This document shows, piece by piece, positions 57,051 to 64,000 of a DNA stretch of 64,000 nt. Position 1 is the stretch's first letter. Each line of letters begins with the position of its first letter. A model generated the notes under the pieces. The model was given only the letters and a program-made list of their open reading frames with translations. It searched no databases and had not been told where the DNA came from. Both the position numbers and the translations under genes were made by a program. The stretch is from Winogradskyella ursingii (lineage in GTDB: Bacteria > Bacteroidota > Bacteroidia > Flavobacteriales > Flavobacteriaceae), in NCBI RefSeq assembly GCF_013403975.1, contig NZ_JABFDH010000001.1, forward strand, positions 620,001-684,000. The letters run 5' to 3'.

Positions 57051-59558
57051 ATGCCAAAAAACCTAGTCATAGTTGAGTCACCTGCAAAGGCAAAAACCAT
57101 AGAAAAATTTTTAGGAAAAGATTATAAGGTAGAGTCCAGTTTTGGGCATATCGCAGATCTTCCGTCAAAAGAATTAGGAGTTGATGTAGAAGGTGATTTT
57201 ATGCCCAAATATCAAGTTTCAAAAGACAAGAAAGATGTCGTTAAGAAATTAAAGGACTTGGCAAAAAAAGCCGATATGGTCTGGTTGGCCAGTGATGAGG
57301 ACCGGGAGGGAGAAGCAATTGCATGGCATTTGGCAGAAACTTTAGATTTAGACAAGGAGAAAACAAAACGAATTGTGTTTCACGAGATTACTAAAAGTGC
57401 AATCAACAAAGCCATAGAAAATCCGAGAAACATTGACTATAATCTAGTGGATGCTCAGCAAGCAAGACGTGTGTTGGACCGTATTGTTGGTTACGAATTG
57501 TCACCTGTATTATGGAGAAAAGTAAAAGGTGGTCTTTCTGCTGGAAGAGTTCAGTCAGTTTCTGTGAGACTCATAGTTGAGCGTGAAAGAGATATTCAAG
57601 CTTTTGAAGCACAAGCATCATTCAGGATTGATGCTGAATTCAAAGCTGAAAATGGTAGCTCATTTAAAGCCAAGTTGCCAAAGAATTTTGATTCGGAAAA
57701 GGAAGCTCTTGGTTTTTTAAACGCTAACATTAAAGCCTCATACGAAGTAGCGGATTTACAGAAGAAACCAGCTAAAAAATCACCAGCTCCACCGTTTACA
57801 ACATCTACTTTACAGCAAGAAGCGTCGAGAAAATTAGGATTTTCGGTAAGCAGAACTATGAGTAATGCTCAACGTCTTTACGAGTCTGGTCTTATTACTT
57901 ATATGAGAACGGATAGTGTAAATCTTTCTGATGAAGCAAAAAAAGGAGCACAGAACGAAATCGAATCCGCTTACGGTGAAAAATACAGTAAGCCAAGAAA
58001 CTACAAAGGTAAATCAAAAGGAGCTCAAGAAGCTCACGAAGCTATAAGGCCAACCAATTTCGAAAATCATACCGTAAAAGCTGAGCGTGACCAGGCCAAG
58101 TTGTACGATTTGATATGGAAACGTGCCATTGCATCCCAGATGAGTGATGCTAATTTAGAGCGTACTAATCTTAAGATTCAAATTAATTCAGATAAAAAAG
58201 TTAGCGAGCAATTTACGGCTAATGGAGAAATTATAACTTTTGATGGATTTCTAAAAGTTTATCTTGAAGGCACCGATGATGAGGATACAGAGCAGGAAGG
58301 CATTTTGCCAGATTTGAAAGTAGGTGAGGCTCTACAAAATAAATATATCACTGCAACCGAACGATTTACAAGACCACCAGCACGTTTTACAGAGGCTTCA
58401 TTGGTTAAGCAATTAGAAGAATTGGGGATTGGACGTCCTTCTACATATGCACCGACCATTTCTACAATCCAGAATAGAAATTATGTAGAAAAAGGTACGC
58501 ATGAAGGTGATGAACGAACATACAAGCAGCTCGTACTGGAAGGAAATAGTGTTGAAGATAAAACTTTAACCGAAACGACAGGTTCTGCTAAGGGCAAGTT
58601 GGTGCCAACTGATATTGGCATGATTGTAACCGACTTTTTAGTTAATCATTTTGAAAGTATTCTCGATTATAATTTCACTGCAAAGGTAGAAGAAAGTTTT
58701 GATGACATAGCTGAAGGGAAGGAAGACTGGAGAGCTATGATGAAAGATTTCTATAAAGGCTTTCATCCACAAGTCGAAGATGTACAGGAAAATGCCGAAC
58801 GTGAATCTGGCGAACGCATTTTAGGTACAGATCCTAAAACAGGAAGACAGGTCAGTGTAAGGCTCGGTAAATTTGGGCCTATGGTACAATTGGGAACTCA
58901 AGACGAAGAGGAAAAACCTCAATTTGCAAGTTTGGCACCAGACCAGCAGTTAAATTCCATTACGTACGATGAAGCAATGGATCTATTTAAGCTTCCAAAA
59001 GCATTAGGTCATTATAAAGAAGAAGAAGTAGAGGTGAACATTGGGCGTTTTGGACCATACGTTCGCTTTGGTAAAAAATTCGTCTCCCTGCCAAAAGGTG
59101 TAGATCCATTAAGTGTTGAAATGGATGAGGCGATGATATATATAAAGGAGAAAGAAAAAGCAGATGCACCTATTTATGTGTATGATGGTTTAGAGGTGAC
59201 TAAAGGAAAAGGACGCTTTGGACCATTCATTAAATGGAACAATATGTTTATCAATGTCAATAAAAAGTACGATTGGGATAATTTATCTGAGGAAGACATT
59301 GTAACTTTGATTGAAGAAAAAATTCAAAAGGAGAAAGATAAGATTATACATAATTGGGAGGATGAAGGCATTCGTGTAGAAAAAGCGAGATGGGGAAGAC
59401 ACAATGTAATTAAGGGTAAGACTAAGGTTGAATTGGCAAAAACGGTAGACGTTAGCGAAATGACATTAGATGAAGCCAAGGAACTCATAGAAAAAAAGGC
59501 GCCAAAGAAGAAATCTAGAAAAAAACCTACAAAAAAGAAAACAACAAAAAAGAAATAG
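57051..59558 (+). CDS. topA: DNA topoisomerase I
   Basis: Type IA topoisomerase relaxing negative supercoils. The 835-residue protein has the TOPRIM domain (VIVESPAKAKTIEKFLG and DEDREGEAIAWHL), the catalytic Tyr284 in LITYMRTDS, and the PPxFTTSTLQQEASRKLGFS segment. The C-terminal part contains topoisomerase-associated repeats (GRQVSVRLGKFGPMVQLG, VNIGRFGPYVRFGKK, KGKGRFGPFIKW) and no zinc-finger cysteines, then a Lys-rich tail that should help DNA binding. It lies six bases before the arginase-fold gene, so the two are probably co-transcribed. Confidence 0.96.
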   Translation: MPKNLVIVESPAKAKTIEKFLGKDYKVESSFGHIADLPSKELGVDVEGDFMPKYQVSKDKKDVVKKLKDLAKKADMVWLASDEDREGEAIAWHLAETLDLDKEKTKRIVFHEITKSAINKAIENPRNIDYNLVDAQQARRVLDRIVGYELSPVLWRKVKGGLSAGRVQSVSVRLIVERERDIQAFEAQASFRIDAEFKAENGSSFKAKLPKNFDSEKEALGFLNANIKASYEVADLQKKPAKKSPAPPFTTSTLQQEASRKLGFSVSRTMSNAQRLYESGLITYMRTDSVNLSDEAKKGAQNEIESAYGEKYSKPRNYKGKSKGAQEAHEAIRPTNFENHTVKAERDQAKLYDLIWKRAIASQMSDANLERTNLKIQINSDKKVSEQFTANGEIITFDGFLKVYLEGTDDEDTEQEGILPDLKVGEALQNKYITATERFTRPPARFTEASLVKQLEELGIGRPSTYAPTISTIQNRNYVEKGTHEGDERTYKQLVLEGNSVEDKTLTETTGSAKGKLVPTDIGMIVTDFLVNHFESILDYNFTAKVEESFDDIAEGKEDWRAMMKDFYKGFHPQVEDVQENAERESGERILGTDPKTGRQVSVRLGKFGPMVQLGTQDEEEKPQFASLAPDQQLNSITYDEAMDLFKLPKALGHYKEEEVEVNIGRFGPYVRFGKKFVSLPKGVDPLSVEMDEAMIYIKEKEKADAPIYVYDGLEVTKGKGRFGPFIKWNNMFINVNKKYDWDNLSEEDIVTLIEEKIQKEKDKIIHNWEDEGIRVEKARWGRHNVIKGKTKVELAKTVDVSEMTLDEAKELIEKKAPKKKSRKKPTKKKTTKKK

Positions 59559-59564
59559 ACACTT

Positions 59565-60731
59565 ATGAATTTTAATTTTCTTTCGCCAGTTTCAGATTCA
59601 GTTTTGGCACACAGCGAACTTTTAGCACCGCAAGCCTTAGGTAAGAGAATAAAAATTCATTCAAAAAAAAATGGCATTCCGGATTTAGACGGAGTACAAT
59701 TAGCCATCATCGGTGTCCAAGAAAATAGAAACGATGTCAATTACATGGGTGCAAAGCTTAACTTTGACGCCATACGTAAAACATTATATACACTTTTTCC
59801 GGGTAATTGGCACACAACTTTAGCCGATCTTGGTGATATTGAACCAGGAGAAACCGTTGAAGATACTTACTTCGCTATTAGAACGGCAATCAATGTATTA
59901 GTAGAAAAAGAAGTTATACCTATAATTTTAGGAGGGAGTCAAGACCTGACTTATGCCAATTATCGTGCCTATGATAATTTACTTCCTATGGTAAATATTG
60001 TAAATGTAGATACTAATTTCGATTTGGGAGACGCCAATCTTCCTGTTAAGAATAACAGTTATGTTGGTAAGGTCATTGTAGAGCAACCGTATAATTTATT
60101 TAATTATACCACCATTGGTTATCAAACCTATTTCAATTCGCAAGAAGAAATTGACCTTATTGAAAAGTTATATTTCGAAGCTTATCGATTGGGTGAGGTT
60201 TCTGCAAATATAAATATGGTAGAACCATTATTGCGGGACGCACATATTGTAAGTGTTGATCTAAAATCGGTAAGAGCTGCAGAAGTGAGTGATAATCAAA
60301 AATATTCGCCTAACGGGTTTTCAGGAAAAGAAATTTGTTCTATAAGTAGATATGCTGGTATAAGTAATAAGGTATCCTCTTTTGGTATTTACGAATATCA
60401 AAATTCACAAAACGATAGTGCAACTTCTATGTTATTATCACAAATGATTTGGTATTTTATTGAAGGTGTTAATTGCAGGGTAAAGGATGATGATTTCTTG
60501 AATAAAAATAACTATCAAAAATACAATGTGCTTGTAGAAGATGATGAGCTTATATTCTATAAAAGTCTGAAAACTGGACGTTGGTGGATCGAGATTCCTT
60601 TTTTGCCAGACGTTAATAATAAATTAAAAAAGCATACGTTATTACCATGCATGCACATCGATTATCTGCAAGCAACCAAGGGTGAAATACCTGAAAGATG
60701 GTATAAGGCTTTTAGGAAGAACAGCTATTAA
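59565..60731 (+). CDS. arginase/formimidoylglutamase-fold protein, metal ligands lost
   Basis: A 388-residue protein of the ureohydrolase (arginase) superfamily, recognisable from its spacing of conserved loops but without a complete metal site. Where the family has GGDH, the sequence is GGSQ (residues 123-126); DAHxD is DTNFD (149-153); the DxDxxD loop is DLKSVR (232-237). Both metal histidines and two acidic positions are thus replaced (Gln126, Asn151, Lys234, Arg237). It is probably not an active hydrolase. It lies directly after topA and before gldK; a terminator separates it from gldK. A structural or regulatory role near the gliding/T9SS operon is inference. Confidence 0.82.
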   Translation: MNFNFLSPVSDSVLAHSELLAPQALGKRIKIHSKKNGIPDLDGVQLAIIGVQENRNDVNYMGAKLNFDAIRKTLYTLFPGNWHTTLADLGDIEPGETVEDTYFAIRTAINVLVEKEVIPIILGGSQDLTYANYRAYDNLLPMVNIVNVDTNFDLGDANLPVKNNSYVGKVIVEQPYNLFNYTTIGYQTYFNSQEEIDLIEKLYFEAYRLGEVSANINMVEPLLRDAHIVSVDLKSVRAAEVSDNQKYSPNGFSGKEICSISRYAGISNKVSSFGIYEYQNSQNDSATSMLLSQMIWYFIEGVNCRVKDDDFLNKNNYQKYNVLVEDDELIFYKSLKTGRWWIEIPFLPDVNNKLKKHTLLPCMHIDYLQATKGEIPERWYKAFRKNSY

Positions 60732-60735
60732 ATCG

Positions 60736-60786
60736 AGCACTTTGTCGATTATTCATACAAAATTAATCGACGAAATGCTTTTTTTT
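60736..60786 (+). terminator. rho-independent terminator before gldK
   Basis: AGCACTTTGTCGATTA and TAATCGACGAAATGCT pair over 16 bases with two weak positions and a 12-base loop, then a run of eight T. It isolates topA and the arginase-fold gene from gldKLM. Confidence 0.85.
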
Positions 60787-60817
60787 AAGATGAAATGCAA
60801 AAAATATTTAAAAAAAG

Positions 60818-60848
60818 TTGTTTTTTAGAAAATATATAAATATGTTTA
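60818..60848 (+). promoter_or_regulatory. candidate promoter of gldKLM
   Basis: TTG (60818-60820) and TATGTTTA (60841-60848) are 20 bases apart; the -7 box is one base off consensus. It lies after the terminator, 42 bases before the gldK ATG. Confidence 0.45.
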
Positions 60849-60890
60849 CCACCTCGAAAATAACAACGACTAATTTAACCTCGTGTTACT

Positions 60891-62243
60891 ATGAATATTA
60901 AGAAGCTAATTTTATTAACCACTGTGCTTGTGATGGTTGCCAGTTGTAACTCTGGAGACCGTGGACAGTTAGTAGGTACCAAAGGAAAAAAATGGCACCC
61001 GGAAAAACCATATGGTATGACCCTTGTTCCAGGTGGTGCTTTTATAATGGGTAAGTCTGATGATGATTTGGCTGGTGTTCAGAATGCTCCGACAAAAACA
61101 GCAACAGTACGTGCCTTCTATATGGACGAAACTGAAATTACTAATAGTGAGTACCGTTCTTTTGTAGAATGGGTAAGAGATTCTATTTTAAGATTAAAGT
61201 TGGCAGAAATGGCAGACTTAGAAGGAAAGACTCCAGGTAACGGCGATATTGGTGAATTTGCTTATTTGGATTCAGACCCAGATAATTTGAATGCTTACGA
61301 AAGCTATATGCTCAATACTTATGGTAATGAGCAGAGAAAGATAAACCGTGACGTGGACTTGATTTATGACACCAACGATTACCCAGATGAATTGTATGCT
61401 GAGGTAATGGATGGTATGTATCTTCCATTAGAGGAATCTTATAATGGCCAACGAACTTGGGATGTAAAGCAATTTAAGTTCCAGTATTCCCATATGGATA
61501 TTGCTAAGGCCGCAAAGGATAGAAGTTTGAGTAGAGCTGAGGTTATTACAAAAGAAGAAGTAGAAATATATCCAGATACAACCGCATGGATTCGAGATTT
61601 CGCTTACTCATATAATGAACCTATGCATAACGATTATTTTTCGCATTCAGCTTATGACGATTATCCAGTAGTTGGAGTTTCGTGGAAACAAGCCCAGGCT
61701 TTTTGTCAATGGAGAACTTTAAAGCATAATGCATTCCAAAAAAGTAAAGGTCAGCAACCAGTAAATGTGTATAGATTACCTTCTGAAGCAGAATGGGAAT
61801 ACGCAGCAAGAGGAGGATTACAAGGAGCAACCTACCCTTGGGGAGGACCTTATACTAAAAACGATAGAGGTTGCTTTATGGCAAACTTTAAACCATTGCG
61901 TGGTGACTATGCGGCCGATCAAGCTCTTTACACAGTAGAGGCAGATGCCTACGATCCTAATGATTTTAACTTGTACAATATGGCAGGGAATGTATCGGAA
62001 TGGGTAAATGGCTCATACGATCCTGCGTCCTATGAGTTCTCTTCAACTATTAATCCTAATGTCAATGATGCTGATAACGCACGTAAAGTTGTTAGAGGAG
62101 GATCTTGGAAAGATGTCGCTTACTTCTTACAAGTTAGTACAAGGGATTATGAATACGCAGATTCTGCAAGAAGTTATATCGGATTTAGAACTGTTCAGGA
62201 CTATATGGGTACCGAGGTAACTAAGAATGCAGCAACAAATTAA
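60891..62243 (+). CDS. gldK: gliding motility lipoprotein GldK (type IX secretion)
   Basis: An outer-membrane lipoprotein that with GldN forms the periplasmic ring of the type IX secretion system. The 450-residue protein has lipobox VASC (Cys19) and a sulfatase-modifying-factor (FGE-like) domain from about residue 40 to 440. Family segments include MTLVPGGAFIMG, DETEITNSEYR, YPVVGVSWKQAQAFCQWR, YRLPSEAEWEYAARGG, NMAGNVSEWV and RGGSWKD. It is an FGE fold used structurally. It is the first gene of gldK-gldL-gldM. Confidence 0.96.
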   Translation: MNIKKLILLTTVLVMVASCNSGDRGQLVGTKGKKWHPEKPYGMTLVPGGAFIMGKSDDDLAGVQNAPTKTATVRAFYMDETEITNSEYRSFVEWVRDSILRLKLAEMADLEGKTPGNGDIGEFAYLDSDPDNLNAYESYMLNTYGNEQRKINRDVDLIYDTNDYPDELYAEVMDGMYLPLEESYNGQRTWDVKQFKFQYSHMDIAKAAKDRSLSRAEVITKEEVEIYPDTTAWIRDFAYSYNEPMHNDYFSHSAYDDYPVVGVSWKQAQAFCQWRTLKHNAFQKSKGQQPVNVYRLPSEAEWEYAARGGLQGATYPWGGPYTKNDRGCFMANFKPLRGDYAADQALYTVEADAYDPNDFNLYNMAGNVSEWVNGSYDPASYEFSSTINPNVNDADNARKVVRGGSWKDVAYFLQVSTRDYEYADSARSYIGFRTVQDYMGTEVTKNAATN

Positions 62244-62328: not shown

Positions 62329-62961
62329 ATGGCACAAAAGAAATTATCATCGATGAATATGGTCTACGGACTTGGAGCGGCAATTGTAATTATTGGCGCG
62401 TTATTTAAAATTCAACACTGGCCTTATGGATCATTAATCTTAACGATTGGTATGATTGTAGAAGCAATTGTATTTACAATATCAGCTTTTGAAAAACAAG
62501 GAGATGACCTGGACTGGTCTTTAGTATATCCAGAATTGGCTGGAGGGGCAGTAACAAAGAAAAAAGGTATTAAAGAAGAGCCAAAAGATGCTGAAGGATT
62601 ATTATCTAAAAAATTAGATAACTTACTTAAGGAAGCTAAAATAGACGGCGAACTTATGGCAAGTTTAGGAACTAGCATCAAAAACTTTGAAGGTGCAGCA
62701 AAAGGAATTTCACCTACTGTAGATGCTATGACAGCACAGAAAAAATATAGTGAGGAATTATCTTTAGCGGCAGCACAAATGGAGTCATTGAACAGTCTTT
62801 ATAAAGTACAGATGGAATCTGCGAACCGTCAAGCAACTGTTAATGAAGAGGCTGTAGAAAATGCCACTAAATTAAAAGAACAGATGCAGTCATTAGCATC
62901 AAACTTATCATCTTTAAACGGTGTATACGGTGGAATGCTTTCTGCAATGAACAAAAACTAA
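62329..62961 (+). CDS. gldL: gliding motility protein GldL (type IX secretion motor)
   Basis: An inner-membrane proton-driven motor subunit that works with GldM. The 210-residue protein has two membrane helices (about 10-28 and 33-52) with a short connecting loop (KIQHWPYGS) and a conserved Glu in the second helix (MIVEAIVFTISAFE), followed by a cytoplasmic coiled region. Length is standard. The 85-base gap after gldK contains two ACTTAAG copies (62283-62289 and 62303-62309) whose role is unclear. Confidence 0.96.
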   Translation: MAQKKLSSMNMVYGLGAAIVIIGALFKIQHWPYGSLILTIGMIVEAIVFTISAFEKQGDDLDWSLVYPELAGGAVTKKKGIKEEPKDAEGLLSKKLDNLLKEAKIDGELMASLGTSIKNFEGAAKGISPTVDAMTAQKKYSEELSLAAAQMESLNSLYKVQMESANRQATVNEEAVENATKLKEQMQSLASNLSSLNGVYGGMLSAMNKN

Positions 62962-63009: not shown

Positions 63010-64000
63010 ATGGCAGGAGGAAAATTATCTGCAAGGCAGAAAATGATAAACTTGATGTACCTTGTCTTTATTGCAATGATTGCAATGACAATGACTAAAG
63101 AGGTATTATCGGCATTCGGTTCAATGGATGCAAAGTTTGAAGCAACAAACGAGTTAACAACAGCTTCAAATGAGAACTTACTTAAGGGTCTAGCTTTAAA
63201 AGCTGAAGAAAAACCAAAAGAGTTTAGAGTAGCGGCTAATAAAGCAGCTCAGATTAAACAAATCTCTGATAAATTTGCCAACTACATAGGTACCTTAAAA
63301 AAGGATATCGTAGTAGGTGGCGGTTACGAGTTAGAAGATAATGGTGAGCTTCCTTTTGAAGAAATGGACAAAGGCGATTATCTTGATGAAGCTTGGTTTA
63401 CTGGAGACAGATTGACCAAGAAGGGTCAAGAAGTTATGGAAACTTTTAGAAAATATAAAGAGGACATCAAAGCTGTTTTAGGTGATGAGGTATCTTATAA
63501 TAATGCAATACAAAATTTTGAAAAGCGTTTTGATTTAAGTGACGTAAAACCAGAAGAAGCTTCTGCAGTGAATTACTTAGATTACAATTTTAAAGGTTTT
63601 CCTGCAATCGCATCACATGCTAAATTAACAGCGATTCAAAATGATGTAAGAACTACTGAAGCTAACTTATACAACTTATTTTTAGGAAATTCGCTTGAAG
63701 AAGCTGTAACCCTAAAGAATTATCAAGCAATTGTAATCCCGGACAAAAATGCGTTTTTTGCAGGAGAAAAATTCCAAGGAAAAGTAGTATTGGGTAAATA
63801 TGCTAGTGTAACACCAAACAAATTGATGGTAAATGGTAACGAAGTGTCTTTGACAGAAGAAGGTGCCATTGATTCCTTAGGAAATGCCAGACTTAATTTC
63901 ACAACAGGTAGTGTTGGTGAGAACGAAGTCAAAGGAACATTTACATTCATGGAAAAAGGTGAACCATTGGAAATTCCTTATGTTGGTAATTACGTTGTGG
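63010..64000 (+). CDS. gldM: gliding motility protein GldM, partial (cut by window end)
   Basis: The motor shaft of the type IX secretion system, anchored in the inner membrane and spanning the periplasm to GldK/GldN. The visible 330 codons begin MAGGKLSARQKMINLMYLV, with a membrane helix at about residues 13-34 that pairs with GldL, followed by the helical N-terminal periplasmic domain and the start of the beta domains. The reading frame stays open to the last base, so the 3' end lies beyond the window; complete GldM proteins are about 510-520 residues. It follows gldL by 48 bases. gldN would be expected next. Confidence 0.95.
   Translation, partial: MAGGKLSARQKMINLMYLVFIAMIAMTMTKEVLSAFGSMDAKFEATNELTTASNENLLKGLALKAEEKPKEFRVAANKAAQIKQISDKFANYIGTLKKDIVVGGGYELEDNGELPFEEMDKGDYLDEAWFTGDRLTKKGQEVMETFRKYKEDIKAVLGDEVSYNNAIQNFEKRFDLSDVKPEEASAVNYLDYNFKGFPAIASHAKLTAIQNDVRTTEANLYNLFLGNSLEEAVTLKNYQAIVIPDKNAFFAGEKFQGKVVLGKYASVTPNKLMVNGNEVSLTEEGAIDSLGNARLNFTTGSVGENEVKGTFTFMEKGEPLEIPYVGNYVV

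Follow-up and report, generated by a model that had tools for sequence, protein, structure and literature searches.

The stretch of DNA analysed here, referred to as the window, comprises 64,000 nucleotides from Winogradskyella ursingii (contig NZ_JABFDH010000001.1, positions 620,001 to 684,000). Close to its end lies the gene studied here, which encodes a putative HutG-derived arginase-fold pseudoenzyme designated HOM. The reading frame (59565..60731, + strand) runs from ATG to stop, contains no internal stop and encodes 388 amino acids. It starts 6 bases past the stop of its immediate upstream neighbour topA (57051..59558, +; TIGR01051, 730 bits) and ends 159 bases short of gldK (60891..62243, +; TIGR03525, 592.9 bits), which is followed by gldL (62329..62961, +; TIGR03513, 231 bits) and by gldM (63010..63999, +; TIGR03517, 272 bits), the latter continuing past the window end. 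The Pfam Arginase model (PF00491) matches HOM with 54.2 bits against a cut-off of 22, placing the protein in this superfamily, and it matches 35 of the 39 rows of the family alignment at E <= 0.001. The arginase-fold gene that the original prediction had placed between topA and gldK is indeed there. The closest named relatives of HOM are from Winogradskyella species, with an identity of up to 88%. The gene is under purifying selection: among 76 indel-free orthologues, the 43 with a finite dS have a median dN/dS of about 0.05, dS being saturated. Below, G denotes sampled genomes, f families (that of the window being f1) and L loci or sequences.

Ligand calls were made against the arginase motifs GGDHS, DAHxD and SxDxDxxDP. 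Following the rat arginase structure, we take metal A to be bound by H101, D124, D128 and D232, and metal B by H126, D124, D232 and D234; all the site-based counts given below rest on this division. The three motifs named in the original prediction were located in HOM by alignment, all on the + strand: GGSQ at residues 123-126 (59931..59942), DTNFD at residues 149-153 (60009..60023) and DLKSVR at residues 232-237 (60258..60275). Both ligand histidines are replaced, by Q126 at the H101-equivalent position and by N151 at the H126-equivalent position. One of the four ligand aspartates is replaced as well, K234 standing in place of D234, whereas D149, D153 and D232 are retained. The aspartate lost from GGDH and the altered end of DLKSVR do not belong to the Mn-complexing residues listed in PMC6213053. 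The predicted loss of both histidines was therefore correct, while the two acidic ligands said to be replaced come down to one.

Among 80 named relatives, Q126, D149, D153 and D232 are found in all 80; position 151 is Asn in 78 and His in two, and position 234 is Lys in 78 and Arg in two. Since this pattern recurs across the 80 relatives, the ligand changes are evidently neither chance nor assembly error. For a wider view, 37 rows from diverse members of the HOM family and 24 canonical arginase-family rows were aligned alike. Position 126 is Gln in 21 members, His in 10, Asn in five and Asp in one. At position 151, His is present in a single member (L115), compared with 24/24 canonical rows, and Arg in 13/37. 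The D234-equivalent is Asp in two members, both of which belong to f4 and have lost the other ligand aspartates, against 24/24 canonical rows. No member has more than four of the six ligands, whereas all 24 canonical rows have at least five, Asn being allowed at H101. The two ligands specific to site B (H126 and D234 equivalents) are never found together in the family (0/37; one of the pair in 3/37) but always in the canonical rows (24/24), and a Lys or Arg occupies a site-B position in 21/37 members. Of the canonical rows, two belong to the window's genome and 16 to other Bacteroidia, and the remaining six come from outside the class; genomes that also carry HOM contributed 13 of the 24. The motifs of the 16 Bacteroidia rows are intact, except that three have Cys in place of D232. 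The ligand losses are thus specific to HOM, as the canonical paralogues, including those of carriers, keep the motifs. Overall, the loss of the binuclear ligand set in the HOM family is well supported by the aligned sequences.

Moreover, the family has acquired features of its own. Residues Q187, E220, P221, R224, W296, F331, W340 and C362 are identical in all 37 members. Three of them define an EPxxR motif, which reads EPLLR in the window (residues 220-224; 60222..60236, +) and is not typical of canonical relatives (E220 in 2/24, P221 in 2/24, R224 in 1/24 rows; Q187 is found in 13/24). The second feature is a C-terminal extension of 80-90 residues, recognized by profile matches and modelled separately, which covers residues 303-388 in the window (60471..60728, +) and includes RWW, C362 and DY. 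It matched once per genome in 114 of the 119 genomes of the class that were searched; the frames concerned measure 359-433 amino acids, apart from three short ones (236, 252 and 61 amino acids). Modelled alone, this domain forms four strands and two helices with moderate confidence (mean pLDDT 73.5). Pfam searches with the domain from 31 members gave no credible match (best, SH3b_P2 at 0.0033, in two members); in a profile search of the PDB no E value was better than 0.41, with spectrin SH3 at 0.66-0.81, and Foldseek with the separate model gave a best E of 0.97, SH3 folds being absent among the 50 rows shown. There is a faint hint of an SH3-like barrel in these comparisons, and missing matches are no proof of a new fold.

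In a maximum-likelihood tree of the 61 rows, a branch supported at 100/98 separates the 37 HOM members from the others. Judging from this tree and from the searches that follow, the HOM family is a single clade nearest to HutG. In the PDB, the best match by profile is the formimidoylglutamase 3m1r (9.4e-19), and the best match by fold is 4mxr (Z 12.8, rmsd 4.4, 227 aligned, residues 22-306), 2a0m also reaching Z 12.8. The comparison with 4mxr, made on a moderate-confidence model, points to a ureohydrolase fold. Confidence in the model of the whole protein is modest (mean pLDDT 62.6, pTM 0.65, residues 150-226 under 50), and VIA-align on this model spanned residues 14-340 only. HutG (TIGR01227; 3m1r, 1xfk, 4mxr) is accordingly the closest known system in sequence and fold, with a common ureohydrolase core at about residues 22-306.

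This resemblance raises the question of whether HOM could be a working formimidoylglutamase of histidine degradation. The hutG model TIGR01227 is indeed the best NCBIfam match to HOM (E 5.9e-17), but its 61.8 bits are far below the cut-off of 229.15, and three other HOM members gave 95.8 bits, 35.6 bits and no match. This cut-off is strict, as two canonical sequences also fall below it (L136, 210.5; L138, 211.3). The HutG ligand set (His/Asn, four Asp, His) is broken in the window by N151 and K234, the site-B ligands being lost, and unlike HutG the protein adds EPxxR and the C-terminal domain. In one carrier (G080), a hutG paralogue above the cut-off (L184, 293.9 bits) coexists with HOM in the same genome. 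The gene context also differs: no member of the amidohydrolase (HutI-like) cluster is found in the HOM loci. The canonical rows from outside the class (L136-L141), by comparison, are devoid of the C-terminal domain, and a member of this cluster, one of them Pfam-scanned, is present in four of their six loci, directly upstream in three; with amidohydrolase genes nearby, their context fits expected hut operons. A role of HOM in histidine degradation is consequently highly improbable, and the warning that the name formimidoylglutamase would be misleading was well founded. The window's genome possesses two further arginase-family (PF00491) genes, neither adjoining HOM.

The original prediction also described the protein as metal-free, which is not supported as stated. 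A site-A-like set (H/N/Q, D, D/N, D) is present in 34/37 members and a strict one (H/N, D, D, D) in 12/37, so that a metal-free HOM is a guess from the residues present. These residues would suit an enzyme of changed chemistry, using one metal at site A or none on a substrate yet to be named. Consistent with this, the E277-equivalent is Glu in 19/37 members, and the polar residues E53 (31/37), R55 (34/37) and Q187 (37/37) are widely kept. The H101 position, moreover, tolerates substitution: Asn occurs there in proteins named formimidoylglutamase (3m1r alignment; 4myn, whose title gives an N114H variant), so that His to Asn alone is no sign of inactivity, and PMC6988801 gives Cys for a Zymomonas arginase. 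Against this, the E277-equivalent is Gly in 12/37 members, no member has the site-B pair, and in f4 and L121 site A is lost in part or whole while EPxxR and the C-terminal residues remain. Both f4 rows, for example, retain EPxxR, W296, W340 and C362 despite the loss of D149, D153 and D232, which is the strongest indication that the conserved function of the family needs no metal site. We regard a changed chemistry as unlikely.

The distribution of HOM was examined in three samples. In the class sample of 296 genomes, HOM was found in 280 at E <= 1e-17, or in 278-280 given two doubtful cases (G406, 2.4e-20; G434, 2.0e-19); the doubt arises from G012, whose canonical protein reached 1.1e-18 with the HOM profile. 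GldK was found in 285 of these genomes at E <= 1e-60; both proteins were present in 275, HOM only in five, GldK only in 10 and neither in six. In the phylum sample, also of 296 genomes, HOM was present in 69 and GldK in 71 of the 73 members of the window's class; among the matches listed, those in other classes end by profile position 321 of 385. In the order-level sample of 79 genomes, 60 passed the search cut-off for HOM, of which 59 were kept, the match in G012 being canonical; GldK was above the cut-off in 66, with GldK only in seven, HOM only in none and neither in 13, 11 of which are f15 genomes of 0.3-0.6 Mb. A diverged HOM was sought with a 39-row profile (E <= 1) in 17 genomes with GldK and without HOM, and matches were obtained in five only. 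These five sequences (L157-L161) were rejected as diverged HOM, as they grouped with canonical paralogues in the tree. No tblastn match to HOM at 1e-5 was obtained in phages and plasmids. HOM is thus kept in nearly all sampled Bacteroidia, except for a few families. One 1.4-Mb genome (G005; contigs C13 and C48) shows two copies of both HOM and gldK with 5% contamination, and is probably a mixed bin.

The gene order around HOM was then compared. In the 80 named relatives, topA is just upstream in all 80 and gldK lies within 2.5 kb downstream in 78, the exceptions (L038 and L051) being short contigs. At a wider scale, HOM and gldK are linked on the same strand in 47 of 59 order-level carriers and in 97 of the 127 class genomes for which both coordinates are listed, that is, in 29 of 43 families; they are unlinked in 30 genomes and 14 families, and also in f4, f21 and f22, although draft contigs may conceal some linkage. 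The commonest linked layout in the loci read is topA - HOM - PorP/SprF - gldK - gldL - gldM - gldN. PorP/SprF stands between HOM and gldK in most linked families (L127, L145-L151, L153) and is missing in f1, as in the window (60732-60890), and also in f3 and f5, judging by gaps of 0.1-0.3 kb. In three f4 loci and in G063, gldK is elsewhere and topA still adjoins HOM or is one or two genes off. In the f16, f17, f18, f21 and f22 loci, neither topA nor the gldK of the type IX secretion system (T9SS) was seen, and no partner is common to all of them. In f18 (L122, L123, L125), the arginase core is very diverged or the N-terminus shortened, and the C-terminal region is retained; a GldK-like gene with an FGE-sulfatase domain (scanned in L122) lies two genes from HOM there, followed in L122 and L123 by a gene of the PorP/SprF cluster.

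Promoter and terminator scans and a search for TTTG/TAnnTTTG gave counts within chance, with no site between HOM and gldK, and statements on transcription units are based on gap lengths. Given the gap of 6 bp, co-expression of topA and HOM is plausible. The closeness of HOM to gldK looks like an ancestral arrangement and is not proof of a shared function.

With these neighbours in view, the original prediction suggested a possible connection of HOM with T9SS or gliding. HOM could then be a cytoplasmic accessory of this machinery that influences, for instance, the GldL/GldM motor or how the gldK operon is expressed. The synteny is real, often with PorP/SprF in between, and HOM accompanies GldK in 275 of the 296 genomes of the class sample and in 69 of the 73 class members of the phylum sample. 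Of the six class genomes that lack both HOM and GldK, five also lack GldL and SprA. Furthermore, four of the five carriers without GldK show T9SS elsewhere: SprA is present in G546, G477 and G581, and at least 150 T9SS sorting domains were counted in G404. With these genes or domains present, and with the G404 contig ending 470 bases beyond HOM, the absence of GldK from these four was treated as an assembly gap.

On the other hand, the linkage is only partial, with gldK elsewhere in f4 and G063, and GldK occurs without HOM in seven order-level and 10 class genomes (12 if G406 and G434 are scored as negative for HOM). GldL and SprA were found in all 10 of these class genomes, and G459 has SprA without HOM or GldK. 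In two of the order-level genomes the loss is clean and the secretion locus intact, topA being followed directly by gldK in G009 and by porP and gldK in G011. Absence from T9SS-negative relatives, which the original prediction proposed as a check, holds for the reduced f15 genomes and a few others and fails in G547 (99% complete), where HOM is present and neither GldK (E <= 1e-60) nor GldL or SprA (E <= 1e-3) was found. This is the sole remaining carrier without a T9SS core gene, with the caveats that the GldK search went no further than E 1e-60 and that one sorting-domain match (8.8e-9) was obtained. G547 belongs to genus g45 of f16; the GldK of its congener G080 scores low, and the genus may be in the course of losing T9SS.

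HOM is thus neither present wherever the system is nor absent elsewhere. The co-occurrence is moreover confounded by shared ancestry, since the genomes are related by descent and the counts are not independent events. HOM is also without a hydrophobic N-terminal stretch, as seen by inspection of its sequence, from which a cytoplasmic location is expected; for an accessory of this machinery, this counts against. An exclusive T9SS role was rejected as the leading explanation on the co-occurrence, linkage and clean-loss counts. The link to T9SS or gliding is weak, and an accessory or supporting function is possible, if rather unlikely.

Non-catalytic arginase-fold proteins are a known kind. The Trypanosoma brucei arginase-like protein, which Hai et al. 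reportedly described in 2015 (PDB 4rhi, 4rhm), is said to be such a precedent. The title of 4rhm (S149D/R151H/S153D/S226D) implies an Arg at the His position, as in 13/37 HOM members, although this protein is eukaryotic. The bacterial example, as given in PMC11271267, is MetCb, a pseudo-subunit of metformin hydrolase with five of six ligands changed and no metal seen, which acts by binding. By analogy with MetCb and MetCa, HOM might be a non-catalytic subunit completing an active arginase-family partner, for which the two further arginase-family genes of the window's genome would be available. Unlike the adjacent metCaCb pair, which according to the same source serves one catabolic pathway, HOM is class-wide and has no adjacent partner in the loci seen: neither paralogue adjoins it in the window's genome (by PF00491), and no second gene of the HOM BLAST cluster was found in the 40 loci clustered, the loci outside that genome being assessed by BLAST cluster only. 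Such a subunit role is improbable.

Taken together, we consider it probable that HOM is derived from HutG, no longer acts as a hydrolase and has a housekeeping role across the class, by binding or as a scaffold. A HutG-like ureohydrolase ancestor would have lost the hydrolysis of guanidino or formimidoyl groups, along with the ligands specific to metal B, often replaced by Lys or Arg, while the site-A aspartates were kept in most lineages. The gain of EPxxR and of the new C-terminal domain would have provided conserved surfaces through which the protein most likely acts, as a scaffold or sensor that binds a protein, a nucleic acid or a small ligand. A housekeeping process in the cytoplasm would then retain HOM in nearly all sampled Bacteroidia. 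A regulator responsive to metabolites or metals would be one such protein: site B often replaced by a basic side chain, site A serving as a single-metal or acidic ligand pocket, the new domain at the C-terminus, and production together with topoisomerase I and, in many lineages, also with the downstream T9SS core operon. This detailed picture is speculative and, as a whole, doubtful.

Several observations weigh against a non-hydrolytic housekeeping protein. His is found at position 151 in two of the 80 close named relatives and in L115. The data are compatible with a mononuclear metal enzyme, given that the site-A aspartates survive in many members, as does E277 in 19 of 37. The strict site-A set is retained in only 12/37. 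Several families do without HOM, so it is dispensable somewhere, and the housekeeping role is drawn solely from the distribution. Some inner forks of the tree are poorly supported, L121 and L002 being long branches, and the modest whole-protein model precludes placing the invariant residues in space.

In a major bacterial class, near-universal genes with no assigned function make good targets; HOM is easily overlooked because its best curated match is a catabolic enzyme. The lost site-B pair, the gained domain and the absence of a strict tie to T9SS turn a likely misannotation into a testable target. HOM would also be an old and widely distributed addition to the short list of arginase-fold pseudoenzymes for which any role is described. 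A literature search, for which subscription papers were mostly outside reach, returned nothing on the HOM lineage, its extra domain or its distribution.

Elsewhere in the window's genome (L001, 3-2382), an agmatinase gene (228 bits) was observed just downstream of a long frame, which presumably encodes an arginine decarboxylase.
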